A stretch of DNA of 64,000 nucleotides from a virus (IMGVR_UViG_3300035670_000019:1-64000); one strand, 5' to 3'; numbered from the stretch's first letter, positions 1,648 through 23,671 are shown. Translations and numbers: made by a program. Notes: a model not told the origin generated them from the sequence alone.

Positions 1648-2121
1648 ATGAAAAAATCTGAGCTAAAACAACTTATAAAAGAAGAAATTATTAAAGTATT
1701 AAACGAACGTGGGGTTATAGATGAAGGTTGGAAAGAAAACATTTTAGTAGGATTAGCTTCTTTAGCTGGCTCTTTAGGTTTAGGTTTAAAAGCCCAAGAT
1801 ACAGTCCAAAATATGCCTTCTAAAGAAAAAACAGAAACTTCATACTCAGCTGAAGAATCATATCAAGTTCTTATAGGATATTTAATAGAATTAGACCAAG
1901 CAGGAGCATCAACTAAAACCCCAGAAGAATTAGGTGCTATGAAAGAAGCTAGAATGTATCTTGAAGCACTTCGAGATAATCAAACTCCTAAATCTTTATC
2001 TAATCCCGCTAAAGTAGTTTTAAATTATGCTATAAAAGAGACTAAAAATTTAAGTGGTTTTGAATTAAAAAGATTATCTGATTTAGGTGAAAACATTAAA
2101 ACAATAAGTTACAATGAATAA
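1648..2121 (+). CDS. Leader-bearing putative internal capsid protein (class A)
   Basis: 157 residues. The first 20 residues form a class A leader with ELKQLIKEEIIKVLNE, ending in L-N-E at residue 20. After it comes a short Gly/Ala/Leu-rich hydrophobic stretch (about residues 31-48) and then a mostly helical, charged domain. In T4, internal head proteins carry N-terminal capsid-targeting peptides removed by the gp21 protease at L/I-x-E sites; this leader has that form and recurs in several other genes here. Function after processing is unknown. The start is fixed by the leader, and the 3' end overlaps the next gene by eight bases. Confidence 0.6.
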   Translation: MKKSELKQLIKEEIIKVLNERGVIDEGWKENILVGLASLAGSLGLGLKAQDTVQNMPSKEKTETSYSAEESYQVLIGYLIELDQAGASTKTPEELGAMKEARMYLEALRDNQTPKSLSNPAKVVLNYAIKETKNLSGFELKRLSDLGENIKTISYNE

Positions 2122-2569
2122 CTGGTTTTGGTATGAGAATGCTCAAATTAAAGAATTTAAATCTATAGAAGATTTCCCACAGGATAGCTTTGGATTTATT
2201 TATAGGATCACAAATAGAGTGACAGGTAAATTCTATATTGGTAAAAAAAGTCTTTACCATAACATAAAGAAAAAACTCACCAAAAAAGAACTAGCTGAAC
2301 AATCTGGTCCTGGTAGAAAAGCAACTACTAAAAAAGTACATAAAGAATCTGATTGGCTAACATATTGGGGCTCTAATAAAGAAATATTAGAAGAAATAAA
2401 ATTAAATGGTAACCTAGCATTCCAAAGAGACATTATCAAAATAGTTAATACTAAAAAAGAATTAACATACTGGGAAGTCTATTACCAATGCCAGTATAAT
2501 GTTTTACGTGCAAATAGTTATAATGATAACATATTAGGAAAGTTTTTTAAAAAAGACTTTGTTTCTTAA
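2114..2569 (+). CDS. GIY-YIG-like putative nuclease domain protein
   Basis: 151 residues. Residues 28-43 (FIYRITNRVTGKFYIG) fit the two short strands of a GIY-YIG nuclease fold, here written FIYRI...FYIGKK, followed by a basic stretch and a conserved region SDWLTYWGSNKEILEEIK. Similar single-domain proteins are common in T4-like phages and usually lack the DNA-binding repeats of homing enzymes, as this one does. Possible roles are DNA repair, recombination or host DNA degradation; the sequence does not decide. It overlaps the preceding leader protein by eight bases, so the two are probably co-translated. Confidence 0.6.
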   Translation: MNNWFWYENAQIKEFKSIEDFPQDSFGFIYRITNRVTGKFYIGKKSLYHNIKKKLTKKELAEQSGPGRKATTKKVHKESDWLTYWGSNKEILEEIKLNGNLAFQRDIIKIVNTKKELTYWEVYYQCQYNVLRANSYNDNILGKFFKKDFVS

Positions 2570-2593
2570 ATAGTTTTCATACATTATACAAGT

Positions 2594-3526
2594 ATGGTAA
2601 ACCAGTTATTAGTAACCCTAGTGGACTCTGTTTTAGGTAAAGGTAAAAATACCTCTAAAAACAATCGGGCATACACTTGCCCGTTCTGTAAACATCATAA
2701 GCCTAAACTCGAAGTAAACATGGATACTAATGCTAAAGGTGACAACCCATGGCATTGTTGGGTATGTAATACTAAAGGTAGAAAATTATCACGTTTATTT
2801 AAACATTTAGAAACTACACCTGATAAGCTTCAAGCATTATATTCTTTAGTAGGTACCTCCAAATCAGAACATACCGAAGTTAATTTAGAGCAGGTTAAAC
2901 TACCTGAAGAATTTATTCCGCTAATTGATGTGACTTCAAATAATATTGTTGGTAGACGCGCTTTAGCTTACTTAAAACGCCGTGGTATTACCAAATATGA
3001 TATCCTAAAATACAACATTGGTTATTGTGAGCATGGACCTTATTCTAATATGATTGTTATACCTTCATATGATGAAAAAGGTAATTTAAATTATTTTACC
3101 TCTAGAGGATTTGAAGAATTTTCTAGATCCAAATATAAGAATCCAAATGTATCAAGAAATATTGTTCCATTTGAATTTTTTATAAACTGGAATGTACCTA
3201 TCATTTTATGTGAAGGCCCATTTGATATGATGGCTATTAAACGCAATGTAATACCATTACTAGGCAAAAACATCCAGGATAAATTAAAGAAAAAACTCGT
3301 TACTTCACAAGTACAAAAAATATATATAGCATTAGATAAAGATGCTATTAAACAAGCTCTTTCATTTTGTGAGGATTTATTAAATGAAGGAAAAGAGGTT
3401 TATTTGGTAGAGTTAAAAGATAAAGACCCAAGTGAAATGGGTTTTGAAAACTTTACTAAGTTAATCCAAACAACCCAACCATTAACATTCTCAAACTTAT
3501 TTGAGAAAAAACTAGAACTAGTATGA
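2594..3526 (+). CDS. DNA primase, gp61/DnaG type
   Basis: 310 residues. An N-terminal zinc-binding domain has C29-P-F-C32 and C55-W-V-C58. A TOPRIM catalytic core follows, with E207-G in CEGPFDMMAI and the D248-K-D250 pair in ALDKDA. This is the DnaG order. The length is close to T4 primase gp61 (342 residues), and the C-terminal helicase-binding part is short. It should lay RNA primers for lagging-strand synthesis with a phage helicase that is not in this window. The stop overlaps the start of the nuclease gene by four bases (ATGA), so they form one translational unit. The start is the first ATG after a 24-base gap. Confidence 0.88.
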   Translation: MVNQLLVTLVDSVLGKGKNTSKNNRAYTCPFCKHHKPKLEVNMDTNAKGDNPWHCWVCNTKGRKLSRLFKHLETTPDKLQALYSLVGTSKSEHTEVNLEQVKLPEEFIPLIDVTSNNIVGRRALAYLKRRGITKYDILKYNIGYCEHGPYSNMIVIPSYDEKGNLNYFTSRGFEEFSRSKYKNPNVSRNIVPFEFFINWNVPIILCEGPFDMMAIKRNVIPLLGKNIQDKLKKKLVTSQVQKIYIALDKDAIKQALSFCEDLLNEGKEVYLVELKDKDPSEMGFENFTKLIQTTQPLTFSNLFEKKLELV

Positions 3527-4332
3527 TAGAAAAAAATGTAAATGTCTATAAAAAACAAGTAACTCGTATACTTAATATAGACCCAACTTCAAAAAGAGTA
3601 AATGTATTTGATAACAGATTTTATAGTAGAAATCAAGATTATTACCCTTCTGTTACTAGTATATTACAATTTATGCCTAAAGGTAAATTTTTTGAAACTT
3701 GGCTTAAAGATGTAGGACATAACGCTGATATTATAGCTAGAAAAGCGGCGGATGAAGGTACACAAGTACATGATGCTATTGAAAAATATCTTAAAGGAGA
3801 AAAAATTCAATGGGTAAATGAAGAAGGATACTCTAATTACTCAATGGATGTATGGAAATTAATTCTTAAATTCCATGATTTTTGGACTACATATAAACCT
3901 ATCCTAATCGAAAGCGAAATTCATTTATTCTCAGATCAATATAAATATGCAGGAACATGTGATTTAGTTGTTGAAATTGATGGAGTAAGATGGTTATTAG
4001 ATATTAAAACTTCAAATTCAATTCATACATCTATGGATTTACAATTAGCAGCTTATGCTCAAGCATGGAATGAAACATTTGAAGAAAAAATAGAAAAAAC
4101 AGGTATCATCTGGTTAAAATCTTCTAAACGTGGTGAAGGAAAAGGGGATAAAATTCAAGGTAAAGGATGGGAAATATATGAACCAACACGCACATTTGAA
4201 GAAAATTTAAAATTATTTAATTCTATACATGAATTATTTAAACTTGAATATCCTAACCCAAAACCATCTTCTGAACAATTCCCTATTGAGATTCAACTAG
4301 ACCCTAATATTTATGAGAAAACTCAAGAATGA
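3523..4332 (+). CDS. PD-(D/E)XK nuclease, RecB/Cas4-like
   Basis: 269 residues. The order of motifs is that of the RecB/Cas4 branch of the PD-(D/E)XK superfamily: EGTQVHDAIEKYL (conserved His motif), then YAGTCDLV with D147, then LLDIKTS with D160 and K162, then the QLAAYAQ motif IV helix. The enzyme would be a metal-dependent exonuclease or endonuclease acting on single-stranded or broken DNA. It overlaps the primase by four bases at its start and the next gene by four bases at its end, tying it to replication or repair. No Cas4-type iron-sulphur cysteine cluster is visible, which argues against a CRISPR role. Confidence 0.82.
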   Translation: MIEKNVNVYKKQVTRILNIDPTSKRVNVFDNRFYSRNQDYYPSVTSILQFMPKGKFFETWLKDVGHNADIIARKAADEGTQVHDAIEKYLKGEKIQWVNEEGYSNYSMDVWKLILKFHDFWTTYKPILIESEIHLFSDQYKYAGTCDLVVEIDGVRWLLDIKTSNSIHTSMDLQLAAYAQAWNETFEEKIEKTGIIWLKSSKRGEGKGDKIQGKGWEIYEPTRTFEENLKLFNSIHELFKLEYPNPKPSSEQFPIEIQLDPNIYEKTQE

Positions 4333-5243
4333 TTTCTTTAATAAAGCTATTACATGAAGTTCTTATCGATGAAGGTGGAAATGTGTTTAAAGGTACAGAA
4401 TTTGATGCTCAAGATATAGTATTAGATAATATTAAACCTACAGTTGAAAAATTTGTTAGTGATTTAAGTAAAATTTTTCCTAATAAAAAAGCAACATTTA
4501 CTCCATTAACTGATAAAAGTAATTGGTTAGGCTCAACCGGTAGTAAACCTAAATCTGGAGACGTTGACTTAGCCTACTCATCAGAACATCTATTTAAAGA
4601 TGGAAAAGCTGATACTAATGGATGGGGTATTAATCAAAATGAATATGATGCTTTGTATGAAAAAACAAAGAAATCATCTCGTACAGCTACTGATGAAGCA
4701 GTTCAAACTAATGCTTTAATACGCTTAATTGTTAGTAAAATTAACAATGCTGGTAGTGATATATATGCTAGTGATAAAGCAGCAAATGGAGGCACTATCC
4801 ATTTCTCATACCCACAGTACACTCCAACAGGAGAGAAATTAGATTCAAGAGCCCAACTTGATATAGACACAGGAGATATGGATTGGTTAAAATTCAGATA
4901 CAATTCTGAATTACCTGAAGATAATCCTGAAATTAAAGGTTTACATAGAGGACAATTAATGTTAGCTATGTTTGCTGCTACAGGTTATACTTTTAAAAGT
5001 GGTAGAGGATTTATACGTAAAGAAACAGGTGATGTTATTGCTGATAAACCCCAAGGTGCTTTAGAAGTATTCAATCAAGAATATCAACCAACACAACCAC
5101 TAACTTTAGAGATAATTAATAATTATGATAAATTAATGAGTTATATTAAGACTAACCTTAAACCTGAAGATCAAACTAAAACATTAGAAATGTTTAAGGA
5201 AGCGTTACGAAGAGCAAATGCGTATGTCCCTGATAATATTTAA
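4329..5243 (+). CDS. Nucleotidyltransferase-like protein with class A-type leader
   Basis: 304 residues. WLGSTGSKPKSGDVDLA has the Gly-Ser and D78-x-D80 signature of polymerase-beta-fold nucleotidyltransferases, and QLDIDTGDMDW further on could supply the third carboxylate. The N-terminus MISLIKLLHEVLIDE followed by GG resembles the leaders described for other genes here, with I-D-E ending at residue 15. The substrate (protein, RNA or small molecule) cannot be told. The next gene carries a second nucleotidyltransferase motif, so the two look like a functional pair. If the leader is a capsid-targeting sequence, this would be an enzyme carried in the virion; that part is inference. Confidence 0.65.
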   Translation: MISLIKLLHEVLIDEGGNVFKGTEFDAQDIVLDNIKPTVEKFVSDLSKIFPNKKATFTPLTDKSNWLGSTGSKPKSGDVDLAYSSEHLFKDGKADTNGWGINQNEYDALYEKTKKSSRTATDEAVQTNALIRLIVSKINNAGSDIYASDKAANGGTIHFSYPQYTPTGEKLDSRAQLDIDTGDMDWLKFRYNSELPEDNPEIKGLHRGQLMLAMFAATGYTFKSGRGFIRKETGDVIADKPQGALEVFNQEYQPTQPLTLEIINNYDKLMSYIKTNLKPEDQTKTLEMFKEALRRANAYVPDNI

Positions 5244-5248
5244 ATAAC

Positions 5249-7669
5249 ATGAGTGGAGCAGCAGGTGGTATCACCATTAATAAAGAAAATTTAAAAGCAA
5301 CAATTCGAGATTACAGAGATAATGTTTTAAAACCATTAGGTCTTGATAAATCTTATAATGTTACTGGGGTTCGTTCTAGACCTGAAAAAAATACCTTTGG
5401 AGACATTGACATAATTATATCCTTCCCAGGAGGTGATAAAAAAGAACTTAAACAGCAATTAGCCCAATTCCTAGAACAAGTAGAAAAAATCCCAGAAATC
5501 CCTCATAAGAAAAATAAAAAATATTTCATACATGGTTCTATAGTCTCTATTTTATACCCAATATCTGGAAGAGAAAATGAGTATGTTCAAATAGATAATG
5601 TTGTTACGTCTTCTGAAGATGAAGGTAAATTTACTTACAGAATGTTAGATTTACCTGCTCAAGAACAAGGTTTAGCTTTAGGTTTAGCTAAAACTATATT
5701 TACAGAATTAGATGAAAAACAAATAGAACAATTATTTAGAAACCTAAACATCCCTCAAGATATTGAAAAACCAGGTGAAGGAGAAGAATATGATTTTAAC
5801 CTGAACACTTCAGAATTATCTTTAAGGATTGTTCCTATAGGTAAAAATGACGGAAGAGAAATATGGAAATCTAATAAATTTTCTGATATTAAAACCTTAC
5901 TTGCTTCTTTAGGTATTGATATTGAAAAAGATAAATTTGAAGCTATAGTTGAAAAAATTAAAAAATTCAAAAGTAGAAGATCAATAGATAGACTTAAAGG
6001 AATGTTTGCTAGAAATATTCGAGTTGGTGATACTGAAATTACAAGAGAAAAAGGTATTAAAAAACAACAATCACTAGATGCTGTAGCCGCTTTAGAAGGT
6101 AAATATAGTCCTTTAGTAATGAGTTTAATTAAACCATTTATAGAGGGAGAAACTATTATTGTAGAAGATGAAAATCAATCTAAAAAAGTAATAGCAGTAT
6201 TCCCAGGCAAATTTAAACCACCTCATAAAGATCATATAGCTCGAATTAAAGCCGCAGCTAATGATGCTGATGAAGTACTTGTCTTAGTGTCTCCAAAAAC
6301 AGAACCAAGTGGTACTGATAAGAAAAGTAGAGAAAAACTTGAAACCCAAATTCCTATATCAGCAGATCAAAGTTTAAGTATTTTTAAATCACTTAATCTT
6401 CCAAAAAATGTTAAAGTATTATTATCAAATGACTCATCTTTACCTGTACCTTCACCAAGTCCTGTAGCTGCAGCTTATGAATTATTTAAAAACAATCCTG
6501 AACAACAATATATAGGGGTATTTGGAAAAGAAGAAGATTTTGCTAGATTTGGATCCACTCCTTCAAATGTAATTATTAAAAATTATGATGGGTCAGCTGG
6601 AAATTTAAGTGCTACTGACTTAAGAGCAGCTTTGAAAAATAACCAGGATATAATTTCTTTCCTACCAGACGGGATTACTTCAGATGAATATAGACAAGTA
6701 TTAGGCTTAGATAATATTGATGAAGGTGATGAAATAACATCATTTTTAGATGAATATATAAATAATAAAGATTTAGAAGATATTGATCAAATAGCTGATG
6801 AAGAATTAGATACAGATGTTGTTTTTAATAAAGGAACAGACAATCACTTTGTTAAAAGAGCTAATGAACGTGGAGTTAGTAAACAAGATTTAATAGATTT
6901 TTTTCAAGAATTAGGAGCAGCAAAAGATGAATTCAAAGATGAATTTGAAGATCTAATTAACAACTATGAACCTGGGGAACCAAAACCTGCTATAGTTGCT
7001 AAAGATGAATATACTGGATTTAGTATACCATTTGTATCTGATAATATACGTAAAATATTAGCTACAACTATACTTTCTCCTGGGATGAAACCTAAAGAGA
7101 AAAAAACATTTAGTTTTTCTGAATCAGAAAATTTTGAACCATTACCAGATATAGACTTAAACACCTCTTCAGAATCATCTAGGGTTGATTATTATAAAGA
7201 TCATATTCAAAATGTAGTACCATCTGATTTTAAAGTTGATAAACATAAAGATAAGATTGTAGTATCTAATATCACTAAAAAAGGATTAGAACATAATAAA
7301 GAATTTAAAGACAAATTAATATCTTTAACAATGTTTATGATGGATAATGGTTTAAATATTGAGCCATTACCTGATATTAATTTTATTGAAGATGATAAAG
7401 AAAATGCTGTTGATATATTAGGACGTACAGCTCATTATGACCCAAACCAAAAATGTATTACTTTATACACTTATGGTCGTCATCCAAAAGATGTATTACG
7501 TTCATATGCTCATGAGATGATTCATCATCTACAAAACCTTGAAGGTAGAATCCAAGGTATTAAAGGTCAAAATGTTAATGAAGATGATTATTTAAAAGAA
7601 TTAGAAATTGAAGCTTACAGAGATGGAAATATTTATCTCCGTAGATGGGAAAATTCAACTAAAAAATAA
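5249..7669 (+). CDS. Multidomain protein: nucleotidyltransferase + NMNAT/cytidylyltransferase-like + metalloprotease-like
   Basis: 806 residues with at least four parts. (1) Near residues 38-56 the stretch up to G51-D-I-D54 fits a polymerase-beta-type nucleotidyltransferase. (2) From about residue 312, VFPGKFKPPHKDH is an HxGH-type nucleotidylyltransferase motif with Asp in place of Gly, matched by NLSATDLR (the I/S-S-x-x-R type motif) about 130 residues later, so both halves of the active site are present. (3) Around residue 531, NHFVKRANERGVSKQDL is a small conserved helical motif. (4) At the C-terminus H755-E-M-I-H759 is a zinc-metalloprotease signature. Fusion of these activities is unusual. 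The gene lies five bases behind another nucleotidyltransferase. Whether each domain is active is not shown. Confidence 0.7.
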   Translation: MSGAAGGITINKENLKATIRDYRDNVLKPLGLDKSYNVTGVRSRPEKNTFGDIDIIISFPGGDKKELKQQLAQFLEQVEKIPEIPHKKNKKYFIHGSIVSILYPISGRENEYVQIDNVVTSSEDEGKFTYRMLDLPAQEQGLALGLAKTIFTELDEKQIEQLFRNLNIPQDIEKPGEGEEYDFNLNTSELSLRIVPIGKNDGREIWKSNKFSDIKTLLASLGIDIEKDKFEAIVEKIKKFKSRRSIDRLKGMFARNIRVGDTEITREKGIKKQQSLDAVAALEGKYSPLVMSLIKPFIEGETIIVEDENQSKKVIAVFPGKFKPPHKDHIARIKAAANDADEVLVLVSPKTEPSGTDKKSREKLETQIPISADQSLSIFKSLNLPKNVKVLLSNDSSLPVPSPSPVAAAYELFKNNPEQQYIGVFGKEEDFARFGSTPSNVIIKNYDGSAGNLSATDLRAALKNNQDIISFLPDGITSDEYRQVLGLDNIDEGDEITSFLDEYINNKDLEDIDQIADEELDTDVVFNKGTDNHFVKRANERGVSKQDLIDFFQELGAAKDEFKDEFEDLINNYEPGEPKPAIVAKDEYTGFSIPFVSDNIRKILATTILSPGMKPKEKKTFSFSESENFEPLPDIDLNTSSESSRVDYYKDHIQNVVPSDFKVDKHKDKIVVSNITKKGLEHNKEFKDKLISLTMFMMDNGLNIEPLPDINFIEDDKENAVDILGRTAHYDPNQKCITLYTYGRHPKDVLRSYAHEMIHHLQNLEGRIQGIKGQNVNEDDYLKELEIEAYRDGNIYLRRWENSTKK

Positions 7670-8864: not shown

Positions 8865-9227
8865 ATGGAGTTTTCTAAATTTATTTCATATCTGTTCCAT
8901 TCAAGAACACAAACCCACATTTTCCATCTACAAACTCCTTCATATGCTGAACATAAAGCATTACAAAAATATTATGAAGGTATTATTGATCTAATTGATG
9001 GTTTAGTAGAGTCATATCAAGGTAAAAATGGTATTATAACTGATTATACTAATTTTAATCTAAAACAATACCAGAGTAAAGAACAAGTTGTAGCATATCT
9101 TGAAACATTATGTGAAGCTGCTTACCAAGCATATGAAGTAACAGAAGACAGTTATCTACAAAACCAAATTGATACTGTGACTGAATTAATCAAATCAACT
9201 ATATATAAACTTTCATATTTAAAATAA
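8865..9227 (+). CDS. Dps/ferritin-like helical protein
   Basis: 120 residues, almost entirely helical. The stretch HIFHLQTPSYAEHKALQKYY followed by DLIDGLVESYQG resembles the first helices of Dps/ferritin-type four-helix bundles, where H, E and D residues line a metal site. Short proteins like this occur in many T4-like phages and are often listed as uncharacterised. Whether it binds iron is not established; several ligands are present but the bundle is shorter than a true Dps (about 160 residues). Its stop shares a base with the next start (TAATG), suggesting translational coupling. Confidence 0.55.
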   Translation: MEFSKFISYLFHSRTQTHIFHLQTPSYAEHKALQKYYEGIIDLIDGLVESYQGKNGIITDYTNFNLKQYQSKEQVVAYLETLCEAAYQAYEVTEDSYLQNQIDTVTELIKSTIYKLSYLK

Positions 9228-9721: not shown

Positions 9722-10090
9722 ATGGAAAAAAAACTACGTACCTTAATAACTCAGTTGGTTAATGAAGAGATTTCTCTTATGGAGAAAAAGCGCAAGAAAG
9801 ATGAAGCACCATCTGAGGAAAATGTTGAACTAAACCTAGACATGCCAGCTGAAGAACCAGCTGCTGAACCTACTACTGAGCCCGCTGCTGAACCTACAAC
9901 TGAACCAGATATGGATTTAAGTGGAGGTGATTCAACAGAAAAACGTATAGGTCAAGGTTTACAAATGGCTTTAGATGCAGCTAAAGAAATGCCTGATGGT
10001 GAAAATAAAACCAAATTAGTAAGACAAATCGGAAATACAGCTCTATTTTTCCTGAAAACACAAATCCCAGGAACTGGAGATCAAGTATAA
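9722..10090 (+). CDS. Leader-bearing Glu/Pro-rich putative internal capsid protein
   Basis: 122 residues. The N-terminus KLRTLITQLVNE (Glu at residue 15) is a class A-like leader. A low-complexity Ala-Glu-Pro-Thr linker (about residues 38-64) separates it from a compact helical C-terminal domain (GLQMALDAAKEMPDGENKTK). This build of leader, flexible acidic linker and small helical domain is seen again in the gene at 16912. The domain has no match I recognise. A promoter-like octamer lies 13 bases upstream. Confidence 0.55.
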   Translation: MEKKLRTLITQLVNEEISLMEKKRKKDEAPSEENVELNLDMPAEEPAAEPTTEPAAEPTTEPDMDLSGGDSTEKRIGQGLQMALDAAKEMPDGENKTKLVRQIGNTALFFLKTQIPGTGDQV

Positions 10091-10119: not shown

Positions 10120-10293
10120 ATGACAACTCAAGAGTTATTTGAACAAATGCAAGGTTTATGGAACGAGTTTTCAGCTGAACACTCTAAAGCGTCTAAGGCT
10201 GCTCATGGTAGAGCCCGTAAGGCGGTTGGCGATCTGAAAAAGTTAGTGACCGAATACCGTAAAGCTTCTGTCGCAGAAGACAAAGCAAAGTAA
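10120..10293 (+). CDS. Histone H1-like DNA-binding protein (Bacteroidetes type)
   Basis: 57 residues: MTTQELFEQMQGLWNEF, then SKASKAAHGRARKAVGDLKK, then LVTEYRKASVAEDKAK. The order of an N-terminal helix, a GRARKAVGDLKKLV core and a lysine-rich tail matches the small histone-H1-like proteins common in Bacteroidetes. It should bind and compact DNA, either host or phage. It has its own gap of 29 bases upstream and is followed at once by a strong hairpin terminator, so it is probably a separately expressed, abundant product. GC content is visibly higher than in neighbouring genes, which fits recent capture from a host. Confidence 0.78.
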   Translation: MTTQELFEQMQGLWNEFSAEHSKASKAAHGRARKAVGDLKKLVTEYRKASVAEDKAK

Positions 10294-12361: not shown

Positions 12362-13042
12362 ATGAAACAACGCCTCCTAGAAATAATTAGAAAAGCATTA
12401 ACAGAACAACCTAAAAAGAAAAAATGTGATTGTGGTTGTGATAAATGTACTGATGCTCCTATGCTAAATGAGTCTAAACAATATGTTATGCCTATATCAG
12501 AGAACATGCGTTATCATTTGGATAAAAAAATACCTATCCATGATAACACATTTCGTCCTGGTTCTAAAGCTCACATTGATTTAATCCACGAAACTCGCTT
12601 ATTATGGAAAAAAGGAGTTATTGAATTACAAGGTGAAGATAAAAAGTTATTTGAAAACACAGACTTAGGTCGTTTTGGAATATATGAAGGTGAAGTAGTT
12701 CCACTTGATTATCCAATGATGGTAATTGAAACTTTAACAGAAGCAGAATTAGAAGAAGAAAAGAAACAACCTGCTTTAGGTAAACCAAAACGTGGTGGTT
12801 CTAAAAAGTTTTATGTTTATGTTAAAGATCCTAAAACCAAGCGCATTAAAAAAGTATCATTTGGTATGGCAGGTGGTGGATTACGTGCTAAATTAAATAA
12901 CCCTAAAGCACGTCAGGCGTTTTCAAAAAGACATGATTGTCCTAATAAAAAAGACAGAACAAAGGCGTCGTACTGGAGTTGTGCGTTGCCTCGTTATGCG
13001 AAACTATTAGGATTTAAAACAACATTCTCAGGATACTGGTAA
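12362..13042 (+). CDS. Leader-bearing Cys-rich basic protein
   Basis: 226 residues in three parts. A class A-like leader MKQRLLEIIRKALTE (L-T-E ending at residue 15) is followed by a Lys run and CDCGCDKC, a compact metal-binding cluster. A middle acidic helical domain follows. The C-terminal basic domain contains KKFYVYVKDPKTKRIKKVSF and DCPNKKDRTKASYWSCALPR, a conserved ending found in many uncharacterised T4-like phage proteins. The basic end could bind DNA. The leader suggests it is packaged. It starts two bases after the nuclease stop. Confidence 0.55.
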   Translation: MKQRLLEIIRKALTEQPKKKKCDCGCDKCTDAPMLNESKQYVMPISENMRYHLDKKIPIHDNTFRPGSKAHIDLIHETRLLWKKGVIELQGEDKKLFENTDLGRFGIYEGEVVPLDYPMMVIETLTEAELEEEKKQPALGKPKRGGSKKFYVYVKDPKTKRIKKVSFGMAGGGLRAKLNNPKARQAFSKRHDCPNKKDRTKASYWSCALPRYAKLLGFKTTFSGYW

Positions 13043-13043: not shown

Positions 13044-13427
13044 ATGAAACTAACACACATACTAAGACAACTTCTTGAGGAGCAAAAGAAAAAAGCAGAC
13101 CGCTGTAAACGCATTGCTGACCGCAAATATGATAAACCATCTGCTTACAAATCAGGCGCTATTGTTAGATGCCGTCAAGGTAAAATCTGGAAAGATTTAA
13201 AAGAAGAAGATTTAAATGAAGATGAATCACTTCATAAATGGTTCAAACGTAAAGGAACACCTGGTAAAGAAGGTGGTTGGGTAGATTGTAATACTTGTAG
13301 GGATGGTAAATGTAAACCATGTGGTAGAAAAGAAGGAGAAAAGCGCGCTAAATACCCTTCATGTCGTCCTACACCCGCTCAATGTAAAACAAAAGGCAAA
13401 GGCAAAAAATGGGGGAAAACCAAATAA
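13044..13427 (+). CDS. Leader-bearing Cys-rich basic protein
   Basis: 127 residues, strongly basic. It begins MKLTHILRQLLEE, a shortened class A-like leader. The C-terminal half is SLHKWFKRKGTPGKEGGWVD, then C-N-T-C, C-K-P-C and later single cysteines in a Lys/Gly-rich context, a likely zinc-binding domain that is conserved in aquatic phages and unnamed. Start and stop are one base from the upstream gene and 15 bases from the next. With the preceding gene it forms a pair of packaged-looking, metal-binding, DNA-friendly proteins. Confidence 0.55.
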   Translation: MKLTHILRQLLEEQKKKADRCKRIADRKYDKPSAYKSGAIVRCRQGKIWKDLKEEDLNEDESLHKWFKRKGTPGKEGGWVDCNTCRDGKCKPCGRKEGEKRAKYPSCRPTPAQCKTKGKGKKWGKTK

Positions 13428-14355: not shown

Positions 14356-16925
14356 TGGAGAATATATATAAGTTTATAATACATGTTGTTTATAATCTGT
14401 TTCCCCTTAACGAATATTCTGAAGGTGAACTTAGAAATTTAATGCAGCAGTTTAAAGATGAAGCTGATGATTTAAATATCACTATCACTGATGATAAATT
14501 AAAATTTTATATCAATCGTTTTGATGCGTTAAAAAATTCACCTAAAATCACTGAAAAAGATCTACGTAAATATTCTTTATCTCAATTAATAAAATTAGTT
14601 ACTTCCTTAGCAGGTGATGAACCAGCTGAATTAGATATCACACCTGATGTTGTTTATAATAATGATGATAACACTATTGTAATTTATAACGGTAGTAAAG
14701 AAGGTAATTGCATTAGATTTGGTAAAGGAGAAAACTGGTGTATAACTAGAGGTTATTATAGTAACTATAGATATAGTTCTGATAGAGGTTATCCAACATT
14801 TTATTTAGCTAGAAATACTAATCTACCAGATAATGATAAACTAAGTTTTGTGGCTATACAAGTTAGAGATGTACCTAATGATAGTATTAGATATGTTTAT
14901 ACTAATAGGATGAATAGTCCTAATGAATCTAAACCAATGTCTTATGAATCTTTATTATCTGAAGTTCCTTGGCTGCAAGATATTCCTAATCTTAAAAATA
15001 TATTAAGATATATCCCTTTAACTTCCGCTGAAAAAGAAACTCAAAAATACAGAGCTAAACCTATTCCTTTTCAAGAATGGACTAAATTTCCATTTGAAAC
15101 TAAAAAACAATATTTAGTTGTTAGAAAAAACGACTCACAAATATTCAGTGATATAACTAATAGTGTGTTTGTAGTTAAGTATTTACCTAAATATCCTCAA
15201 ATAGCTACTTTTGTATGTCTTAACAATGGTATTATTAGTAATGAGACTATGATGCAACATCTAGATTTATTTTCAAATCAAGATGCTAAATCTTTTATAG
15301 CTAATATCCCAGGCACTGTAGGTCTTAGAAGATTAACTGATGATGAAATTTCTTTTGTAGCTAAAAAACTTTTAACTAAGTATAAAAAATGGGATACACT
15401 TCCTTCTAATCAAAGGATGTATGTGACTAAAGATGACAAGGCTATTGTTATGATAACACTCATAAAGCCTATTAAAATTGATGTTTATACTGAAGATGAT
15501 AGTTATACTAACATTAAACTTAACAAACGTACTTCTAGATTTTTATTAGATTTCCCTGAAATTGATACTATACCTTTTACTTCATTGATGGATTTAGTCG
15601 CAACTGAAGTTATAGATAGATCAACCCTAGACAGAATTCTAGCTAAAGCTAAAGAAAACCCAGATTCTGCCCTCATAATTAAAGATACAGAAGATGGACA
15701 GATTTTAGTAGATTCTAATACTTTTAGCTCTTATAAAATAGAAGATGATAAAGTAACTAGTATACCTATTGATAGTGAGGAAGTACAATCTATTCTTATT
15801 GATGAAGAAGGTAATAATGGACTTCAAAATAATGCTTTAAAATTATTAGGAAAAGATATTGATTCTGATTTAATAAATAAAGATATTTTCTTTAATATTA
15901 TTAATTCCACACCAATTGATAAAAGAAAAACATCTAATGGAAATCCTGTTATAGTAGTTAATGATGAAAATACTAAAAAAATCATTATAACTTACAGTGA
16001 TGATATAACAGCACTTTACACACCAGAATATGATTTTAATAGATTTAATTGGTATAACGTAAGAAATTATTCTCTTAGTGGAGCATCTCTTAGAGCGTAT
16101 TTTGAGTATCTTAGACAAACAAATCAAAGTTACACATCTGAACAGTTATTTAATATGGTAACTAGAAGTTATAGTGGTAATGCTAAAAAAGATGTTTTAT
16201 CTGCTAACCCACCATTATCAGATGATAACAAATATAAAATAGTTGTTAATGGTGATCTTTATTACTTATTAAATAAAGAAAATTCAAGATCAAGCCTTAC
16301 TATTTCACCTAACACAGGTAAATTAGTTAAAGCTAATATTTCCCCTCGTGATGCTGCTCAATATCTTGGCCAACCAGTCCCTGCTGGTGAAGAACCTCGT
16401 AGAAGAGGAAGAAGACCAGCTGGAGCAGAAACTCCCCAACAAGCCGCTGCTCCTGCCGCTGCTCAAGGAGCAGCTAATGGAGAAATAGCCGCTATAATAA
16501 ATCAATATGGTTTAACAAACGGATTTAACTCTTTACCTTCAGGTGTAAGAAATAGATTTTTAACTGGCGCTCTAACACCTACTTCTAGTGATAGAGGAGC
16601 TACTCGTAGAAATGGTGCTTTAGGTAATAGAGGTAGAGTTATAAGTGTTATAGCATCAGGACAAAGTAGATTCTATATTGTTCGTTTAGCAAGTAATACT
16701 ATAATAGGATCAGTTGCTACTCAACCAGATGCTCAACATTTTATAGTCACAGCTGAATCTGCATTTAGAATACCTAATGCTGGTGCGTTTGTAGATCAAT
16801 TGCGAGCTCGTAATTTAAGTGAAAATGCTAAAGCAATAATTTCATTACACGCTGAAGCAAAACCACAAGATATGAAAGAACTTAAATATTTATTAAAAAA
16901 TAAAAAGAAATATGAAACTTACTGA
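14355..16925 (+). CDS. Large hypothetical protein, probable virion component
   Basis: 856 residues. The start is a GTG sharing a base with the previous stop (TAGTG); the next ATG is some 30 codons in, so a non-ATG coupled start is the best choice. About residues 112-160 hold GNCIRFGKGENWCITRGYY and PTFYLARN, a motif I have seen in very large aquatic-phage proteins. A long middle part is Asn/Ile/Lys-rich. Near residue 675 there is an Arg/Pro/Ala-rich linker (RRRGRRPAGAETPQQAAAPA) and then a separate C-terminal domain. The size, linker and nearby leader-bearing genes suggest an injected or structural protein. No enzyme motif is recognised. Confidence 0.5.
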   Translation: MENIYKFIIHVVYNLFPLNEYSEGELRNLMQQFKDEADDLNITITDDKLKFYINRFDALKNSPKITEKDLRKYSLSQLIKLVTSLAGDEPAELDITPDVVYNNDDNTIVIYNGSKEGNCIRFGKGENWCITRGYYSNYRYSSDRGYPTFYLARNTNLPDNDKLSFVAIQVRDVPNDSIRYVYTNRMNSPNESKPMSYESLLSEVPWLQDIPNLKNILRYIPLTSAEKETQKYRAKPIPFQEWTKFPFETKKQYLVVRKNDSQIFSDITNSVFVVKYLPKYPQIATFVCLNNGIISNETMMQHLDLFSNQDAKSFIANIPGTVGLRRLTDDEISFVAKKLLTKYKKWDTLPSNQRMYVTKDDKAIVMITLIKPIKIDVYTEDDSYTNIKLNKRTSRFLLDFPEIDTIPFTSLMDLVATEVIDRSTLDRILAKAKENPDSALIIKDTEDGQILVDSNTFSSYKIEDDKVTSIPIDSEEVQSILIDEEGNNGLQNNALKLLGKDIDSDLINKDIFFNIINSTPIDKRKTSNGNPVIVVNDENTKKIIITYSDDITALYTPEYDFNRFNWYNVRNYSLSGASLRAYFEYLRQTNQSYTSEQLFNMVTRSYSGNAKKDVLSANPPLSDDNKYKIVVNGDLYYLLNKENSRSSLTISPNTGKLVKANISPRDAAQYLGQPVPAGEEPRRRGRRPAGAETPQQAAAPAAAQGAANGEIAAIINQYGLTNGFNSLPSGVRNRFLTGALTPTSSDRGATRRNGALGNRGRVISVIASGQSRFYIVRLASNTIIGSVATQPDAQHFIVTAESAFRIPNAGAFVDQLRARNLSENAKAIISLHAEAKPQDMKELKYLLKNKKKYETY

Positions 16926-17151
16926 ACTTAAAAAAATAATTCAAGAAGAAATTACTAAAATTCTTTCTGAAGCCCCCCAAACTGCCCCATCTAAACCAGC
17001 CCCAGATGTTGAAATAGCTGAGCCTGGTACTGAAACAGCCCCTAAAACAAAACCTCGTAGAACAATTTCCCCTGAAGAACCTGTAGAAGAACCAGCTAGA
17101 GCTAAAAAGATAGCTGAAAAAATTGCTGCTCGTTTTAAAAAAGGAAAATAA
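16912..17151 (+). CDS. Small leader-bearing protein with basic C-terminal helix
   Basis: 79 residues. A textbook class A leader, ELKKIIQEEITKILSE with L-S-E ending at residue 20, is followed by Ala-Pro. A 40-residue Pro/Glu/Thr linker leads to a short basic amphipathic helix (AKKIAEKIAARFKKGK). After removal of the leader the product would be about 59 residues with a cationic tail suited to DNA or membrane binding, as in T4 internal proteins IPI-III by analogy. It overlaps the end of the 856-residue protein by 14 bases. Confidence 0.6.
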   Translation: MKLTELKKIIQEEITKILSEAPQTAPSKPAPDVEIAEPGTETAPKTKPRRTISPEEPVEEPARAKKIAEKIAARFKKGK

Positions 17152-18485: not shown

Positions 18486-19118
18486 ATGAATAAAGAGTTC
18501 CTTAAAATGCAAAAATTGGCTGGTATTATTACTGAAAGTCAATATAAAGTATCACTAGATGAAATTGAAAACATATATGAATTAGATGATACAGAAAAAA
18601 ATGTAGTTGATGATGTAAAAGATGAAATGTCTGCTATATTAAAAACTTTAGATGCTGAGTTAAATAAAGCATCTAAATCCACTGATCAACCAACAAATGA
18701 AGGTTTATTAACTGCGGCTGGCTTTATTATAGCTCTTCCTGCTATAATGGGATTAATAGCTAAATTTGGAAAAGCAGCTGGTGCTTTAGTTAATAAGATG
18801 TTAGGTAAAAAACCTAATGAAGGTGATGCTTATAATCAATGGTTAACTAAATTAAGTCATATAGCTGATGAATTACATCATTTGTATTTAGTCCCAATTG
18901 AAGGAATTGTTAAAAAATTTGTTAAAGATCCTAAAAAAGCCCATAATATATCTAATGGAATTTTTCATATTATAGTAGCTGTTTTCTTAGTAGCTTCTGG
19001 AGTCACAGCTGTGAAAGCCTTCCAAGCCAAAAATATATCATTAACCACTTTAGAAAGTGCTTTAACTGCTGTCAAATCAGGAGAAATACAAGCGTTTTTA
19101 GAAAAATTATTCGCTTAA
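18486..19118 (+). CDS. Class B leader protein with two membrane-type segments (putative internal/ejected protein)
   Basis: 210 residues. It starts MNKEFLKMQKLAGIITE, the class B leader, with I-T-E ending at residue 17. Two hydrophobic stretches follow: around residues 74-92 (LLTAAGFIIALPAIMGLIAK) and 155-178 (GIFHIIVAVFLVASGVTAV). A soluble protein of the head core would not need them, so after processing the protein may insert into the host membrane during genome entry. That is inference. The leader DNA is almost identical to that at 28388 and inside 19155-20189. It begins six bases after the previous stop. Confidence 0.6.
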   Translation: MNKEFLKMQKLAGIITESQYKVSLDEIENIYELDDTEKNVVDDVKDEMSAILKTLDAELNKASKSTDQPTNEGLLTAAGFIIALPAIMGLIAKFGKAAGALVNKMLGKKPNEGDAYNQWLTKLSHIADELHHLYLVPIEGIVKKFVKDPKKAHNISNGIFHIIVAVFLVASGVTAVKAFQAKNISLTTLESALTAVKSGEIQAFLEKLFA

Positions 19119-19154: not shown

Positions 19155-20189
19155 ATGCAAATAGAAAGATTACGTTCTCTTATTAAAGAATCAATTCAAG
19201 AATATATTAAAGAAATTGATGAAGCAGCTGAGACTGCCGCTATGGAAGCTCGCATCGCTAAATGTGATGAAGCTATTTTAGCCCGTGAAACTAGACTCGA
19301 AAACCTTAGAAACTTAGAAGAAGCAGCTGATATGCTGGATGAAGTTAAAGTTAAAGCTATGGAAAATGAGATTAAAGAGCTTAAAAAAGCTAAAGCTAAA
19401 TTTGAAAAAGATAAAGAAAAAAAAGCAGCTAAAAAAGCTGGTAAAGGTAAAAAAGAAGTAACTACTGATGCTAAAACTGAAGACACTCCTGTTGATGAGT
19501 CTGACGTAATGGAGAAAATGGAAATGGAAGGTGAAGAACCAAAAGAAAAAGCATTAAATGAGTCATTCCTTAAAATGCAAAAATTAGCAGGTGTTATTAC
19601 TGAGGCTCAATATAATCAGAAAAAAAAAGCCTTAACTGAAAACCAAATAACTAATAACCCTGAATTCAGTAAGATAGAAGATAAAGCTTACAGTTTTATT
19701 AATAGTCCTGAAGTAACTGCTTTACTCACTAAAGAACTAAATAAACTATCACCTGAAGAAAAAACAGAATTATCAAAAAATATTATGTCCGAAGGAGGAT
19801 CAGATAAATCTGATTTTAAATCAACTATAGAAAAAGCTATGAGTGCTATCTCTTTAAATGAAGATATGCATGATGCTATTAGAAAATTAGGTGGATACAA
19901 GCCAGGCCAAGAACCTACAGTTATGGATAAAGCCGCGGGTAAAGTTTTACAAGGTTTAGGAGTGAGTAATATCATGTCAATGGGAACATTACCTAGCCTA
20001 GTAGCTATGGCTATAGATAAAGGATTTGACATTAACCTTATGAAAATGGTTTCAGATATGCTTGGAAGTACACAAGCTGCTGTTGGAGCATCAGTCTTAG
20101 GTGGATTAATAGGAGGTGCGATATTATGGAAAATAGGCAAGATTCTACAAAACGAAAAAACAACTATGGGTACTGCGTTATTTAACTAA
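19155..20189 (+). CDS. Double-leader protein: class A at N-terminus, class B internal, C-terminal membrane segment
   Basis: 344 residues. Residues 1-20 (MQIERLRSLIKESIQEYIKE) are a class A leader ending I-K-E. Residues 25-130 are a Lys/Glu/Ala-rich coiled coil. At residues 137-150 the sequence SFLKMQKLAGVITE repeats the class B leader, with I-T-E ending at 150 followed by AQY. The remainder is a helical domain and a Gly/Ala-rich membrane-type segment near the end (SVLGGLIGGAILWKIGKIL). It reads as two leader-tagged proteins fused in frame, separable by the prohead protease. Two hairpins follow the stop. Confidence 0.6.
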   Translation: MQIERLRSLIKESIQEYIKEIDEAAETAAMEARIAKCDEAILARETRLENLRNLEEAADMLDEVKVKAMENEIKELKKAKAKFEKDKEKKAAKKAGKGKKEVTTDAKTEDTPVDESDVMEKMEMEGEEPKEKALNESFLKMQKLAGVITEAQYNQKKKALTENQITNNPEFSKIEDKAYSFINSPEVTALLTKELNKLSPEEKTELSKNIMSEGGSDKSDFKSTIEKAMSAISLNEDMHDAIRKLGGYKPGQEPTVMDKAAGKVLQGLGVSNIMSMGTLPSLVAMAIDKGFDINLMKMVSDMLGSTQAAVGASVLGGLIGGAILWKIGKILQNEKTTMGTALFN

Positions 20190-20195
20190 CATATA

Positions 20196-20214: not shown

Positions 20215-20243
20215 GCTTTAACTAAAAACTAAAATGGAGCTGT

Positions 20244-20265: not shown

Positions 20266-20315
20266 TTCTCTATGCTTATTTTGGCCTTAATAAAAAGAAT
20301 TATTATATTAAAAAT

Positions 20316-20789
20316 ATGAATATATTTTATATTAATTCTGATCCTATTATCGCCGCTAGAGAATTAGCTGATGATCATATTCGTAAAATGCAAATTGAAT
20401 CTGCTCAAATGTGTTGTACAGCACATTGGGAAACAGGTGGTACTGCTCCATATAAACGAGCTCATAAAAACCATCCTTCAACAATTTGGACAAGACAATC
20501 AATACAACATTATAGATGGTTAGTAAAACATGGATTAGAAATTTGTAATGAATTTGAAAAACGTTATGGTAAAACACATGCTACTAAACAAGTATTGTTA
20601 TGGTGTAAAGACAATGAACCAAATTTACCTAATAATGGATTTATAGATCCACCACAATGTATGCCTGATGAATTTAGAAAGGAAAACACTATAGAAGCAT
20701 ATAAGAATTTTTATATTAATGATAAAATAAAAGTTAAAAAATTAGATTGGAAAAAATTAAATAATAAACCTGAATGGATAAACAAATAG
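20316..20789 (+). CDS. Conserved phage protein of unknown function
   Basis: 157 residues from the ATG at 20316; an upstream in-frame TTG at 20259 would start inside the hairpin. The sequence runs MNIFYINSDPIIAARELADD, then KMQIESAQMCCTAHW, HKNHPSTIWTRQS and FIDPPQCMPDEFRK. This is a very common unnamed protein in aquatic T4-like phages; some relatives are labelled pyrimidine-dimer glycosylase-like, which I cannot confirm. The many conserved His, Cys and Trp suggest an enzyme or metal site. The end overlaps the oxidoreductase by 16 bases. Confidence 0.55.
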   Translation: MNIFYINSDPIIAARELADDHIRKMQIESAQMCCTAHWETGGTAPYKRAHKNHPSTIWTRQSIQHYRWLVKHGLEICNEFEKRYGKTHATKQVLLWCKDNEPNLPNNGFIDPPQCMPDEFRKENTIEAYKNFYINDKIKVKKLDWKKLNNKPEWINK

Positions 20790-22069
20790 TAATAGTTGGT
20801 GCAGGAGTAGCTGGTATAAACGCAGCTACTAAATTAGTTGATAATGGTTACCCTGGTAACTTAATCACTATTATAGACAAAGGTAATGATCCACATAACC
20901 GCTTACCTGAAGAAGTAATGACAGGTATGTTAGGCGCGGGAGGATGGAGTGATGGTAAATTAACATACCATACTGCAATTGGAGGTGTATTATCAAAATA
21001 CTGTGGTGAAGAGAAAGCAATGGAATTGATGGATCAAGTTATTAATAACTTTAGACGTTTTCACCCTAAACCAGAAGAAATCTTTTGCTCTGATCCACAA
21101 GCAGAACCTGAATTCATTAAACCATACTTTGGATTACGTTTATTCCCAGTATGGCATATTGGTTCAAATTACCTACATGAGATTGCTAAAACATGGTATC
21201 AGTATTTGCTAAACAAAGGTGTTAGATTTGAATGGAATACTGAGGTTAAAAATATATACTTTGATCGTAGTAGAATCTACACATCCAATGCCTATATGCA
21301 TTATGATGAACTTATATTTGCAGTAGGCAAATCAGGTATTGACTTTGCTCAAAAATTATCAGATGAGTATAAATTACCAACTGAACCAAAATCAGTACAA
21401 ATTGGAGTACGTTTTGAAGCACCACAAAAATACTTCCAAAAATTAATTGATATTAGCTATGATTTTAAACTATATCAAAAGTTTGATAATGTATCATTAA
21501 GATCATTCTGTACTAATAATAACGCAGCTTACGTCGCAGTAGAGGAAACATATGGTGATATTACTTATAATGGTCACGCTAAGAAAGGTGAGGAATTTAG
21601 AAATGATATGACCAATTTTGGTATTTTGATGGAAATCAAAGGTATTGATAATCCATTTGAATGGTCAAGAGATGTAGTAAATAAATTGCAAATTGATGGA
21701 AAAGGATTATATTACTCACCTAACCAAACCCGCAAACCAGGATTAACATCTGAGGGTGCTACAGTATCAGCTCATCAAGTAGATGATTATTCATTAGATG
21801 ATATTAGAAATGCAATGAGTGGTTATTTCTCATATATTGAAACATTTATTGAACAAATGAATGAAGTATTTCAATTTGGTGATGATTGGGGGATATATGT
21901 TCCTGAAGTAAAATATGTCTCCGCAGAGCCTCTTGTTAATTATAATAATCTAAGTCTCACAACATATAATAATATTTACTTTGCTGGAGACGCATTATCA
22001 GCTAGAGGTATAACAGTAGCAGGTAGTCAAGGTATTTACATTGCTGAAGGTATTTTAAAAAAAATGTAA
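20774..22069 (+). CDS. FAD-dependent oxidoreductase (COG2509-like)
   Basis: 431 residues. A dinucleotide-binding fold starts at residue 5 with G9-A-G-V-A-G14, and a second FAD motif at the C-terminus reads IYFAGDALSARGITVAG. Between them are stretches recalling the uncharacterised FAD dehydrogenases of COG2509: LGAGGWSDGKLTYHTAIGG, HIGSNYLHEIAKTW, SVQIGVRFEAPQ and LRSFCTNNNAAYV. The substrate is unknown. Such enzymes are rare in phages and could modify a host tRNA, quinone or redox pathway. Its last 40 codons are matched, without gaps, by a remnant at 23085-23207, about 1 kb downstream. Confidence 0.8.
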   Translation: MDKQIVIVGAGVAGINAATKLVDNGYPGNLITIIDKGNDPHNRLPEEVMTGMLGAGGWSDGKLTYHTAIGGVLSKYCGEEKAMELMDQVINNFRRFHPKPEEIFCSDPQAEPEFIKPYFGLRLFPVWHIGSNYLHEIAKTWYQYLLNKGVRFEWNTEVKNIYFDRSRIYTSNAYMHYDELIFAVGKSGIDFAQKLSDEYKLPTEPKSVQIGVRFEAPQKYFQKLIDISYDFKLYQKFDNVSLRSFCTNNNAAYVAVEETYGDITYNGHAKKGEEFRNDMTNFGILMEIKGIDNPFEWSRDVVNKLQIDGKGLYYSPNQTRKPGLTSEGATVSAHQVDDYSLDDIRNAMSGYFSYIETFIEQMNEVFQFGDDWGIYVPEVKYVSAEPLVNYNNLSLTTYNNIYFAGDALSARGITVAGSQGIYIAEGILKKM

Positions 22070-22087
22070 GTATTTAATTTCTGGTGA

Positions 22088-22095
22088 TATTTATA
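22088..22095 (+). promoter_or_regulatory. Candidate late promoter element TATTTATA
   Basis: Directly before the endonuclease; only three bases separate it from the ATG at 22099, so if it is a promoter the transcript would begin inside the gene or leaderless. Weaker case than others. Confidence 0.25.
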
Positions 22096-22098
22096 ATT

Positions 22099-22710
22099 AT
22101 GAAATATTATGTATATCATTGGATTAGAAAAGATACTAATGAACCTTTTTATGTAGGAAAAGGAACAGGTAATAGAGCAGGTCATAAAAAATCAAATAAA
22201 GGGTGGAAAAATATTACTTCTAAAGTTGAATGCTTTTGGGAAATTATTAAGTATTTTGATGATGAACAAACCGCTTATCTGTATGAACATACTCTTATTG
22301 AAGAATATAAAAAATTGGGGTATAAGATAATTAATCAAACTGAATATTCTAAAGGAGGAGGTACTTGGGCATATACAGATGAAGTAAAACAACGTCAAAG
22401 TAAAAATAGAAAAGGTAAAGGTTTAGGGCCTCGAAGTGAAGAATGGAAGCAAAATATTAGTAAAGCAAACAAAGGTAGAAATATATTATGGGCTAATAAA
22501 ATAGGGGATGCCCTTAGAGGAAAACCTAAAAATTATTTAAGTCATCATAAACCAATACTACAATATGATCTTCAAAATAATCTACTTAATGAATACCAAT
22601 CAGCCCAAGAAGCAGGTAAACATCTAAATAAATCAGGCAATAGTATAGCGGACTGTGCCGCAGGTCGTCAAAAAACAGCTTACGGATTTATTTGGAAATA
22701 TAAAGAATAA
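22099..22710 (+). CDS. GIY-YIG homing-type endonuclease with NUMOD repeats
   Basis: 203 residues from the ATG at 22099. Residues 3-26 hold the nuclease module (YYVYHWIR and FYVGKGTGNR with the catalytic Arg), and a Glu in YLYEHTLIEEY is the likely metal ligand. Residues 96-130 (SKNRKGKGLGPRSEEWKQNI, SKANKGR) match NUMOD3-type DNA-binding repeats, and the C-terminus (PILQYDLQNNLLNEYQSAQE to AYGFIWKYK) matches NUMOD1. This is the standard build of free-standing phage homing endonucleases. It sits between the intact oxidoreductase and a leftover 3' copy of it, as expected if it drove the rearrangement. Confidence 0.88.
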   Translation: MKYYVYHWIRKDTNEPFYVGKGTGNRAGHKKSNKGWKNITSKVECFWEIIKYFDDEQTAYLYEHTLIEEYKKLGYKIINQTEYSKGGGTWAYTDEVKQRQSKNRKGKGLGPRSEEWKQNISKANKGRNILWANKIGDALRGKPKNYLSHHKPILQYDLQNNLLNEYQSAQEAGKHLNKSGNSIADCAAGRQKTAYGFIWKYKE

Positions 22711-22716
22711 TTCATA

Positions 22717-22724
22717 TATTTATA
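22717..22724 (+). promoter_or_regulatory. Candidate late promoter element TATTTATA
   Basis: Thirteen bases before the ATG at 22738, directly after the endonuclease stop. Confidence 0.4.
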
Positions 22725-22737
22725 CTAAAATATAACT

Positions 22738-23085
22738 ATGAAAAAATCAGAATTACAACAAATTATTAAAGAAGAGATAAATAAATTTAGACTTAAACCT
22801 GGAGATCCGGGGTACACTGATAATGGTATAGCAAATAACTATGCATCTGATTTAACTAATCGTTTATTCTATCAAAAAAATTCCTCTCCTCTACAGTGCG
22901 TAACTAATTGGGGTAATGAATTAGAAAAAGATCCATTAATAGCTGGTAGACTTACTAAAAGTCAAATAGAAGATTTAAAAAAAGAAGCAATAGCTCTTGT
23001 AGGGATTACTAAAGGAACTAGTAGGTATAAACAAGTATTAAAAGATAAAATACTTAAAGTTTTAAAAGGTGAAAAAATAAGATAA
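22738..23085 (+). CDS. Class A leader protein, hypothetical
   Basis: 115 residues. It starts MKKSELQQIIKEEINK, nearly the same leader as at 1648, but continues FRLKPGDPG instead of the usual L-x-E, so the cleavage site is degenerate or absent. The body contains CVTNWGNELEKDPLIAGR and a Lys-rich C-terminus, with no known domain. It lies with the endonuclease in the roughly 1,015-base segment between the two oxidoreductase 3' ends and may have travelled with it. Own promoter-like octamer upstream. Confidence 0.55.
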   Translation: MKKSELQQIIKEEINKFRLKPGDPGYTDNGIANNYASDLTNRLFYQKNSSPLQCVTNWGNELEKDPLIAGRLTKSQIEDLKKEAIALVGITKGTSRYKQVLKDKILKVLKGEKIR

Positions 23086-23207
23086 ATTTGTCATTAAGTG
23101 AATTCCCAAATGTACACTTTGTAGGTGATGCTTTATCTGCTCGTGGTATTACAGTTAGTGGCGCTCAAGGAATATATGTTTCTGAATATTTATTGAAAAA
23201 TAAATAA
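23085..23207 (+). pseudogene. Remnant of oxidoreductase 3' end (40 codons)
   Basis: The frame beginning at 23085 reads NLSLSEFPNVHFVGDALSAR, then GITVSGAQGIYVSEYLLKNK and a TAA at 23205-23207. It aligns without gaps, over exactly 40 codons plus stop, to the end of the FAD oxidoreductase (21947-22069), with 25 of 40 residues identical by hand count. There is no start codon, so it is not an independent gene. Its stop overlaps the next ATG (TAATG), the coupling expected if the ancestral oxidoreductase ended here before about 1 kb with the endonuclease came between. Confidence 0.82.
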
Positions 23208-23671
23208 TGAAATTATCACAACTAAAACAAATCATTAAAGAGGAAATACATAAAGTATTGAATGAAGCTTTTGTTAATGATAAAGGAGAACTTGAAGATT
23301 TTAATTTTGAAAATGATTTAGTAGTAAAATATTTACCTGAATATTATCAAAATGAAAAACGTTATAAATTTTTCTATTGTGAAAAAGGATTAGCAGATGA
23401 CTTTGATACTAAGGATGGTAAAAAAGTAAAATATATTGTAGGATATTCACATTTTTTAGATTTACCTAATGATAAAGAATGGATTTTAGATATGCCTGAC
23501 CCAAAAACTGAATTAAATATAGCTTCAGGTTTAGCACTTGACCCAGATAGTTGTTATGATGCAGAAATGGATGTGATAGGATATATATATTCTAAAAATG
23601 GAAAAGATATTGAAACAGAATATGAAGAAGAGGAATTATGGGAGGCTTTTTATGATTCATTAGGAGCTTAA
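23207..23671 (+). CDS. Class A leader protein, hypothetical acidic
   Basis: 154 residues. It has the clearest class A leader in the window: MKLSQLKQIIKEEIHKVLNE with L-N-E ending at residue 20, followed by Ala. The body is acidic and folded-looking (KRYKFFYCEKGLADDFDTKD, then KYIVGYSHFLDLPNDKEWIL) and ends in a Glu-rich helix. No known domain. The start shares a base with the stop of the oxidoreductase remnant. A strong terminator lies 36 bases after the stop. Confidence 0.6.
   Translation: MKLSQLKQIIKEEIHKVLNEAFVNDKGELEDFNFENDLVVKYLPEYYQNEKRYKFFYCEKGLADDFDTKDGKKVKYIVGYSHFLDLPNDKEWILDMPDPKTELNIASGLALDPDSCYDAEMDVIGYIYSKNGKDIETEYEEEELWEAFYDSLGA

Follow-up and report, generated by a model that had tools for sequence, protein, structure and literature searches.

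Why proteins with quite different bodies, encoded by a single virus, should begin with nearly the same short amphipathic peptide is the question raised by the DNA considered here. The window, the whole stretch that was analysed, comprises bases 1–64,000 of a 163,030-bp IMG/VR record of a T4-related virus, and among cultured phages the capsid protein nearest to its own is that of Flavobacterium phage immuto (56% identity). A preliminary description of the window had proposed that the shared peptide is a modular packaging tag, removed in the prohead by a homologue of T4 gp21. The open reading frames listed in it are all present, with the N-termini that it gave.

The leader concerned is termed class A. 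A profile made from 28 leader sequences, when searched across the whole record, recovers five full-length leaders in the window, those at 90966 and 91615 outside it and a weak match at 150926 (E 0.15) that sits among baseplate genes, all of them at codon 1. Class A is thus the start of seven genes with unrelated bodies, and the whole-record profile search gave no internal copies. The five in the window are on the + strand. MKKSELKQLIKEEIIKVLNE (1648–1707) opens a 157-aa protein (1648–2121; profile E 4e-10 at codon 1) with a predicted cut after LNE20, and in L047 and L092, too, this body follows a class A leader. MKLTELKKIIQEEITKILSE (16912–16971; E 7.5e-9), with a predicted cut after LSE20, precedes a Pro-rich protein of 79 aa whose homologues in L234, L159, L056 and L232 keep the leader. 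The class A-type leader MQIERLRSLIKESIQEYIKE (19155–19214; E 2.3e-7) begins a 344-aa protein and has its predicted cut after IKE20. The genome's best profile match, MKLSQLKQIIKEEIHKVLNE (23207–23266; E 6e-13), has LNE at 20 and belongs to an acidic protein of 154 aa. These four agree with the placing of the Glu of a terminal hydrophobic-x-Glu at residue 20. The fifth, MKKSELQQIIKEEINKFRLK (22738–22797), shares the helix, as had been claimed (profile E 1.3e-8 over 16 residues), and lacks hydrophobic-x-Glu at 20.

Shorter leaders, again on the + strand, begin four other proteins. They had been taken for shorter versions of the same peptide; the leaders are there, and they form a looser group, not strict class A members. 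In three the Glu is at residue 15 as described: IDE in the protein at 4329, VNE at 9722 and LTE at 12362. The leader MISLIKLLHEVLIDE (4329–4373) has a predicted cut between IDE15 and GGNVF, and the orthologues in immuto (L132) and L039, which have no leader, begin M-GGNVF, exactly at that cut. In the AlphaFold model residues 1–16 have pLDDT below 50 and the body is folded. By fold the body matches DNA polymerase beta best (E 3e-4, TM about 0.3), and the assignment of the body as a Pol beta-type nucleotidyltransferase holds as far as conserved GS...DxD-like residues and this predicted fold carry it. MEKKLRTLITQLVNE (9722–9766) precedes a body whose relatives in other phages bear a different leader, class B (below). 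MKQRLLEIIRKALTE (12362–12406) is joined to a Cys-rich basic body (PHROG 7595), and MKLTHILRQLLE (13044–13079), with LLE at residues 10–12, to a basic DUF5872 body (PF19197, Pfam E 2e-7); among homologues of the latter the body is constant and the leader varies from phage to phage. For most leader-protein bodies, Pfam and PHROG searches gave no function.

Other genes lie in this region. Amid the leader genes is that for a 57-aa histone H1-like Hc1 protein (10120–10293; PF07432, E 6e-11), a candidate DNA-condensing packaged protein, and the same operon-like stretch includes a DUF5856/PHROG 858 protein (8865–9227) annotated as a starvation-inducible regulator. A multidomain protein of 806 aa (5249–7669), whose syntenic counterpart in immuto is annotated NadR-like, has a HEMIHH metalloprotease-like motif near its C-terminus.

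Is class A more than a chance resemblance? Degenerate codons for its first 14 residues served as a pattern with which IMG/VR was scanned, the same codons scrambled being the control. The pattern occurs in at least 120 stretches versus 3 for the control, and two of those 3 are themselves leader-like proteins. Among the matches listed, 150 of 151 open ORFs of at least 25 aa, and 150 viral matches start a median of 5 codons past an in-frame stop, with more than 40 codons intervening in only 3. A score of at least 14 bits is reached by 56 of 2,263 ORFs that were not chosen for class A, and by none in shuffles. Cellular genomes (84,980 species, 257 Gb) have the pattern in only 10 stretches; about half of these are real leaders, mostly on short contigs from one metagenome bin, and the rest are chance or broken frames. 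Leader and bodies do not differ in how freely codons are chosen, which places the conservation at the protein level; a DNA-level signal in the leader was rejected on the same ground. (A tblastn search of cultured phages with the 21-residue leader, a query too short for such a search, gave no match.)

The end of the leader is sharp. Of 123 class A proteins with non-redundant bodies, among the matches listed, 69% have Glu20, and from residue 21 onwards conservation declines. In 82 of these 123, residue 20 is exactly the last of a hydrophobic-x-Glu, versus 3.4 ± 1.9 in shuffles and 0–3 at comparable positions of the bodies. The remaining 41 of the listed 123, like the protein at 22738, have no such site at residue 20, and some may therefore stay uncut or be cut elsewhere, for instance at I-K-E12. 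Two 282-aa proteins (L187:4314–5162 and L161:5852–6700) have the class A helix at their C-terminus, where it ends LTK or ITK with Lys in place of the terminal Glu, a parallel to the uncleavable scaffold tail described below. In L177:2361–3101, L244:1060–2196, L156 and L146 a class A segment is within a larger fused protein, behind a GIKEN-like sequence.

A candidate protease for such sites is encoded in the window. The gp21 homologue claimed at 35455 is confirmed as a head maturation protease (35455–36066, + strand; PHROG 207, E 1.8e-56), and hydrophobic-x-Glu, the motif that ends class A leaders, is the known cleavage site of T4 gp21. It is part of a head module that runs TerL (29755), portal (31353), three small genes, gp21, a gene in the scaffold position (36256) and major capsid protein (MCP, 37485). 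With T4 as the reference, the T4-type order of portal, two or three small core genes, gp21, scaffold and MCP is found in the window and in relatives. The acidic gp22-like scaffold (36256–37446, + strand) is identified by its position between gp21 and the MCP and by its relatives, with gene order as in T4 20-67-68-21-22-23, and is similar to the proteins at the same position in immuto and Mel-JY01. The MCP (37485–39155, + strand; PHROG 138) has a predicted propeptide cut between VVE60 and TSQTG (codons 37656–37664). The T4 MCP cut, between FLTE65 and A, aligns with hydrophobic-x-Glu in 65 of the 66 capsid proteins of the set, P3 being Val, Leu or Ile. The two proteins at 34134 and 34637 (34134–35452, + strand) occupy the T4 gp67/gp68 position, and some of their relatives have class A-like helices. 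In the gp68-position family, relatives of 34637–35452 (L139, L273, L284, L289, L270 and L278) have the helix LRS[IL]I...[LI]I[KR]EE[LI], internal or C-terminal. TerL N-termini (MSQDLKQII[KR][ED]EY, at 29755–29800 in the window and in other TerL genes) give weak class A profile matches in several genomes. Among tail genes, a tail-region protein of 1,524 aa (45622–50196) has long runs of SSSYALSSSYA-type repeats, and TVDMNIVINMDK is shared as an identical C-terminal sequence by those at the two ends of the record (126–827 and 161527–162411).

A second leader, class B, connects the leaders to this module. It has the form MNKEFLKMQKLAG[IL]ITE and, by profile search, occurs in the record at 18486, 28388 and 95320, with a further copy inside the protein at 19155. 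On the + strand, MNKEFLKMQKLAGIITE (18486–18536; E 4e-15) opens a protein of 210 aa predicted to be helical (mean pLDDT 67, with low confidence in the leader region), and MNKEFLKMQKLAGLITE (28388–28438; E 8e-14) a 146-aa protein. The internal segment, SFLKMQKLAGVITE (19557–19616, + strand; E 7e-14), is flanked by LNE and AQYN; relatives of the 19155 protein begin with class A and end with class B. A scan of IMG/VR with a class B pattern gave at least 124 copies. Among the matches listed, 94 of 124 are N-terminal, and Glu follows [ILV]-I-T, at a position that the search pattern left open, in 121 of 124.

The next-best class B profile match in the genome is the scaffold C-terminal tail itself, FARMQQLAGLRK (37408–37443, + strand). 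It is the class B core, [FV]-x-R-[MWF]-[QRK]-K-L-A-G-[IL], without the cleavable ITE. Among scaffold relatives, taken as the gp22-position proteins of relatives located by way of gp21, 62 of 62 have their best class B match at the C-terminus, and 49 of these exceed the 99.9% shuffle level. The other head proteins of those relatives (portal, protease, capsid and core) do not have the class B core. It persists at the scaffold tail in Mel-JY01, RM378 and the 484-kb phage LR756508. Class B leaders copy the scaffold tail and so should use its binding site; most simply, class B cargo would borrow that site and add the cut site that the tail is missing. For class A, a like origin, by copying from a fixed core protein, was rejected, the only matches being weak, partial ones in the 34637 family, internal or C-terminal.

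Leaders are exchanged on the same bodies. Nine body families bear both class A and class B leaders, and in the best such pair, L196 (class A) and L205 (class B), body identity is 68% over the 176 aa past the leader (E 3e-78). Orthologues of the 18486 body have class A, class B, class C (FDLKKFLxEN-like) or short leaders, and its relative in Mel-JY01 is the product of the gene directly after the capsid gene. Leader-less bodies also exist, and their start coincides exactly with the predicted cut, as in the 4329 orthologues. Of 234 leader–body clusters, 169 are singletons.

The leaders track gp21 and the head module, within limits. A PHROG 207 gp21 is encoded by 17 of 20 class A contigs of at least 60 kb and 10 of 11 of at least 100 kb, versus 1 of a small background sample of 14 random contigs. 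In the reverse direction, class A is present in 8 of 13 gp21-selected contigs (9 counting a partial TerL match), and class B profile matches, with scaffold tails counted, in 10 of 13, versus 0 of 14 random contigs for each. The class A proteins in the first 380 kb of LR756508 number 15, and every one of them is encoded at 155–220 kb, where gp21 and the major capsid gene also lie. The expectation had been that a search with the leader would recover many unrelated bodies, always at the N-terminus and only in gp21 genomes. Many unrelated bodies were recovered, the position is N-terminal almost always, and the gp21 association is strong in the proportions just given; gp21, however, is not sufficient. 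The leader was absent from the 14 background contigs, and six Bacteroidota phages that lack gp21 do not have it either. T4, HTVC008M, P-SSM2 and syn9 have gp21 and, by profile search, no class A leader, while Mel-JY01 and RM378, with similar head modules, lack both class A and class B leaders; the leaders are therefore a clade-specific trait within gp21 phages. Strict gp21 dependence in both directions was rejected, given the many gp21 phages without these leaders.

The reading favoured here, at a probability of about 0.8 on what the sequences offer, is that the leaders are interchangeable N-terminal prohead-targeting propeptides that act as the T4 capsid targeting sequence (CTS) does and are cut by gp21 to free their cargo in the head. 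During prohead assembly each leader would attach to some part of the scaffold core or the inner shell and so carry the protein behind it inside. Class B, as a copy of the scaffold C-terminal tail, would occupy the site of that tail, probably on the MCP or another core component; class A would act through a second, different partner. The gp21 homologue would then cut after the hydrophobic-x-Glu that ends the leader (LNE20 for class A, ITE for class B), leaving the mature protein free in the head until its ejection along with the DNA. The literature yielded no virion proteomics on any of these phages, and so packaging, cleavage and delivery are what we infer, as is the existence of the class A partner. 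The proposal of a modular packaging tag gains support from the identity of class B with the scaffold tail, from the exchange of A and B on orthologous bodies and from the clustering of class A around the head module in the 484-kb phage. Weighing against it are the internal class B copies, the class A proteins that have no site at residue 20, the relatives with similar head modules but neither leader class, and the position of 150926 among baseplate genes. It also seems rather probable that class B is a portable copy of the scaffold tail, a 17-residue tag that would seat any protein in the prohead in place of that tail before the cut at ITE and that, with class A and other leaders, would amount to general multi-address cargo loading of several to more than ten cargos per phage, the 484-kb phage included.

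The same leaders could instead dock assembly factors or minor core components on the scaffold core, these then being degraded or expelled with the scaffold and not delivered. The 19155 family, adaptor-like in having class A and class B at opposite ends, would suit this, as would the class A-like helices in some gp67/gp68-position proteins and the cutting of T4 gp22, gp67 and gp68 into small peptides (PMC9958956). It is nevertheless unlikely: many bodies resemble intact functional domains (the Pol beta-type fold, DUF5872 and, in L244, a HAD-like protein with a short leader), and a single site right behind the leader fits release better than degradation.

Distinctly less credible is that the leaders are docking peptides for some other phage or host hub, such as RNA polymerase, a membrane site or a replication compartment, with hydrophobic-x-Glu as incidental helix chemistry. 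Short amphipathic helices are common docking elements, and the leader genes at 90966, 91615 and 150926 are far from the head genes; against this, class B is the scaffold tail and is exchanged with class A on the same bodies, and leader genes track gp21 and the head module. Ordinary paralogous expansion, in which an ancestral gene was duplicated and the C-terminal parts diverged past recognition with no targeting role, might account for the adjacency of several leader genes and for tandem class A proteins such as those of L016 and L086. It is very improbable and already disfavoured by leader swapping, as orthologous bodies have different leaders gained or lost at one exact junction, and the preponderance of singletons among the leader–body clusters is also against it.

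How does the favoured reading, of targeting propeptides, stand beside known systems? In T4, propeptides of 10–19 residues target proteins to the core, and targeting (residues 4 and 7) is separable from cleavage (8 and 10) (PMC9026906). The T4 CTS (MKTYQEFIAE in IPII and IPIII; also IPI and Alt) with gp21 is likewise a short N-terminal propeptide on unrelated bodies that ends in hydrophobic-x-Glu, and T4 shares with these phages gp21 and the gene order 20-67-68-21-22-23. The T4 genome has no class A or class B profile match, so the system is proposed to work like the CTS and descent from it is not claimed. Unlike the CTS, the leaders are of 17–20 residues, fall into several classes, occur on many genes per genome and are swapped, and one class is the scaffold C-terminus; according to a review, conservation of the T4 CTS does not extend to other core proteins (PMC9958956). 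An N-terminal segment of P1 DarB suffices to send a reporter into the capsid (PMC9024508), an analogous packaging signal, but the P1 Dar proteins have no common consensus and no shared leader family. Among the inner-head proteins of SPN3US and phiKZ, packaged-protein propeptides are cut by the prohead protease and two paralogues have identical first 15 residues; however, those propeptides are mostly over 100 residues, the cleavage motif is another one and no scaffold-tail copy is reported there (PMC5694885). No open-licence paper in the literature searched has the peptides QIIKEE, MQKLAG or LAGIITE. What is new relative to the CTS is the different sequence, the multiple leader classes, their exchange, the scale and the identification of the copied partner, the scaffold tail.

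The head contents and injected proteins of T4-related uncultured phages are largely undescribed. Going by these sequences, it is very likely that in a large family of such phages, mostly uncultured, tags load unrelated proteins into the head. If so, the leaders would flag candidate internal or injected proteins in many viral contigs from nothing but sequence, yield a list of cargo bodies to try against host defences and offer a short tag, released by the protease, with which proteins of choice could be loaded into phage heads. The organisation of the T4 core has been described as unresolved (PMC9958956). As to what a capsid targeting sequence can bind, the scaffold-tail copy would supply a concrete answer that can be tested.
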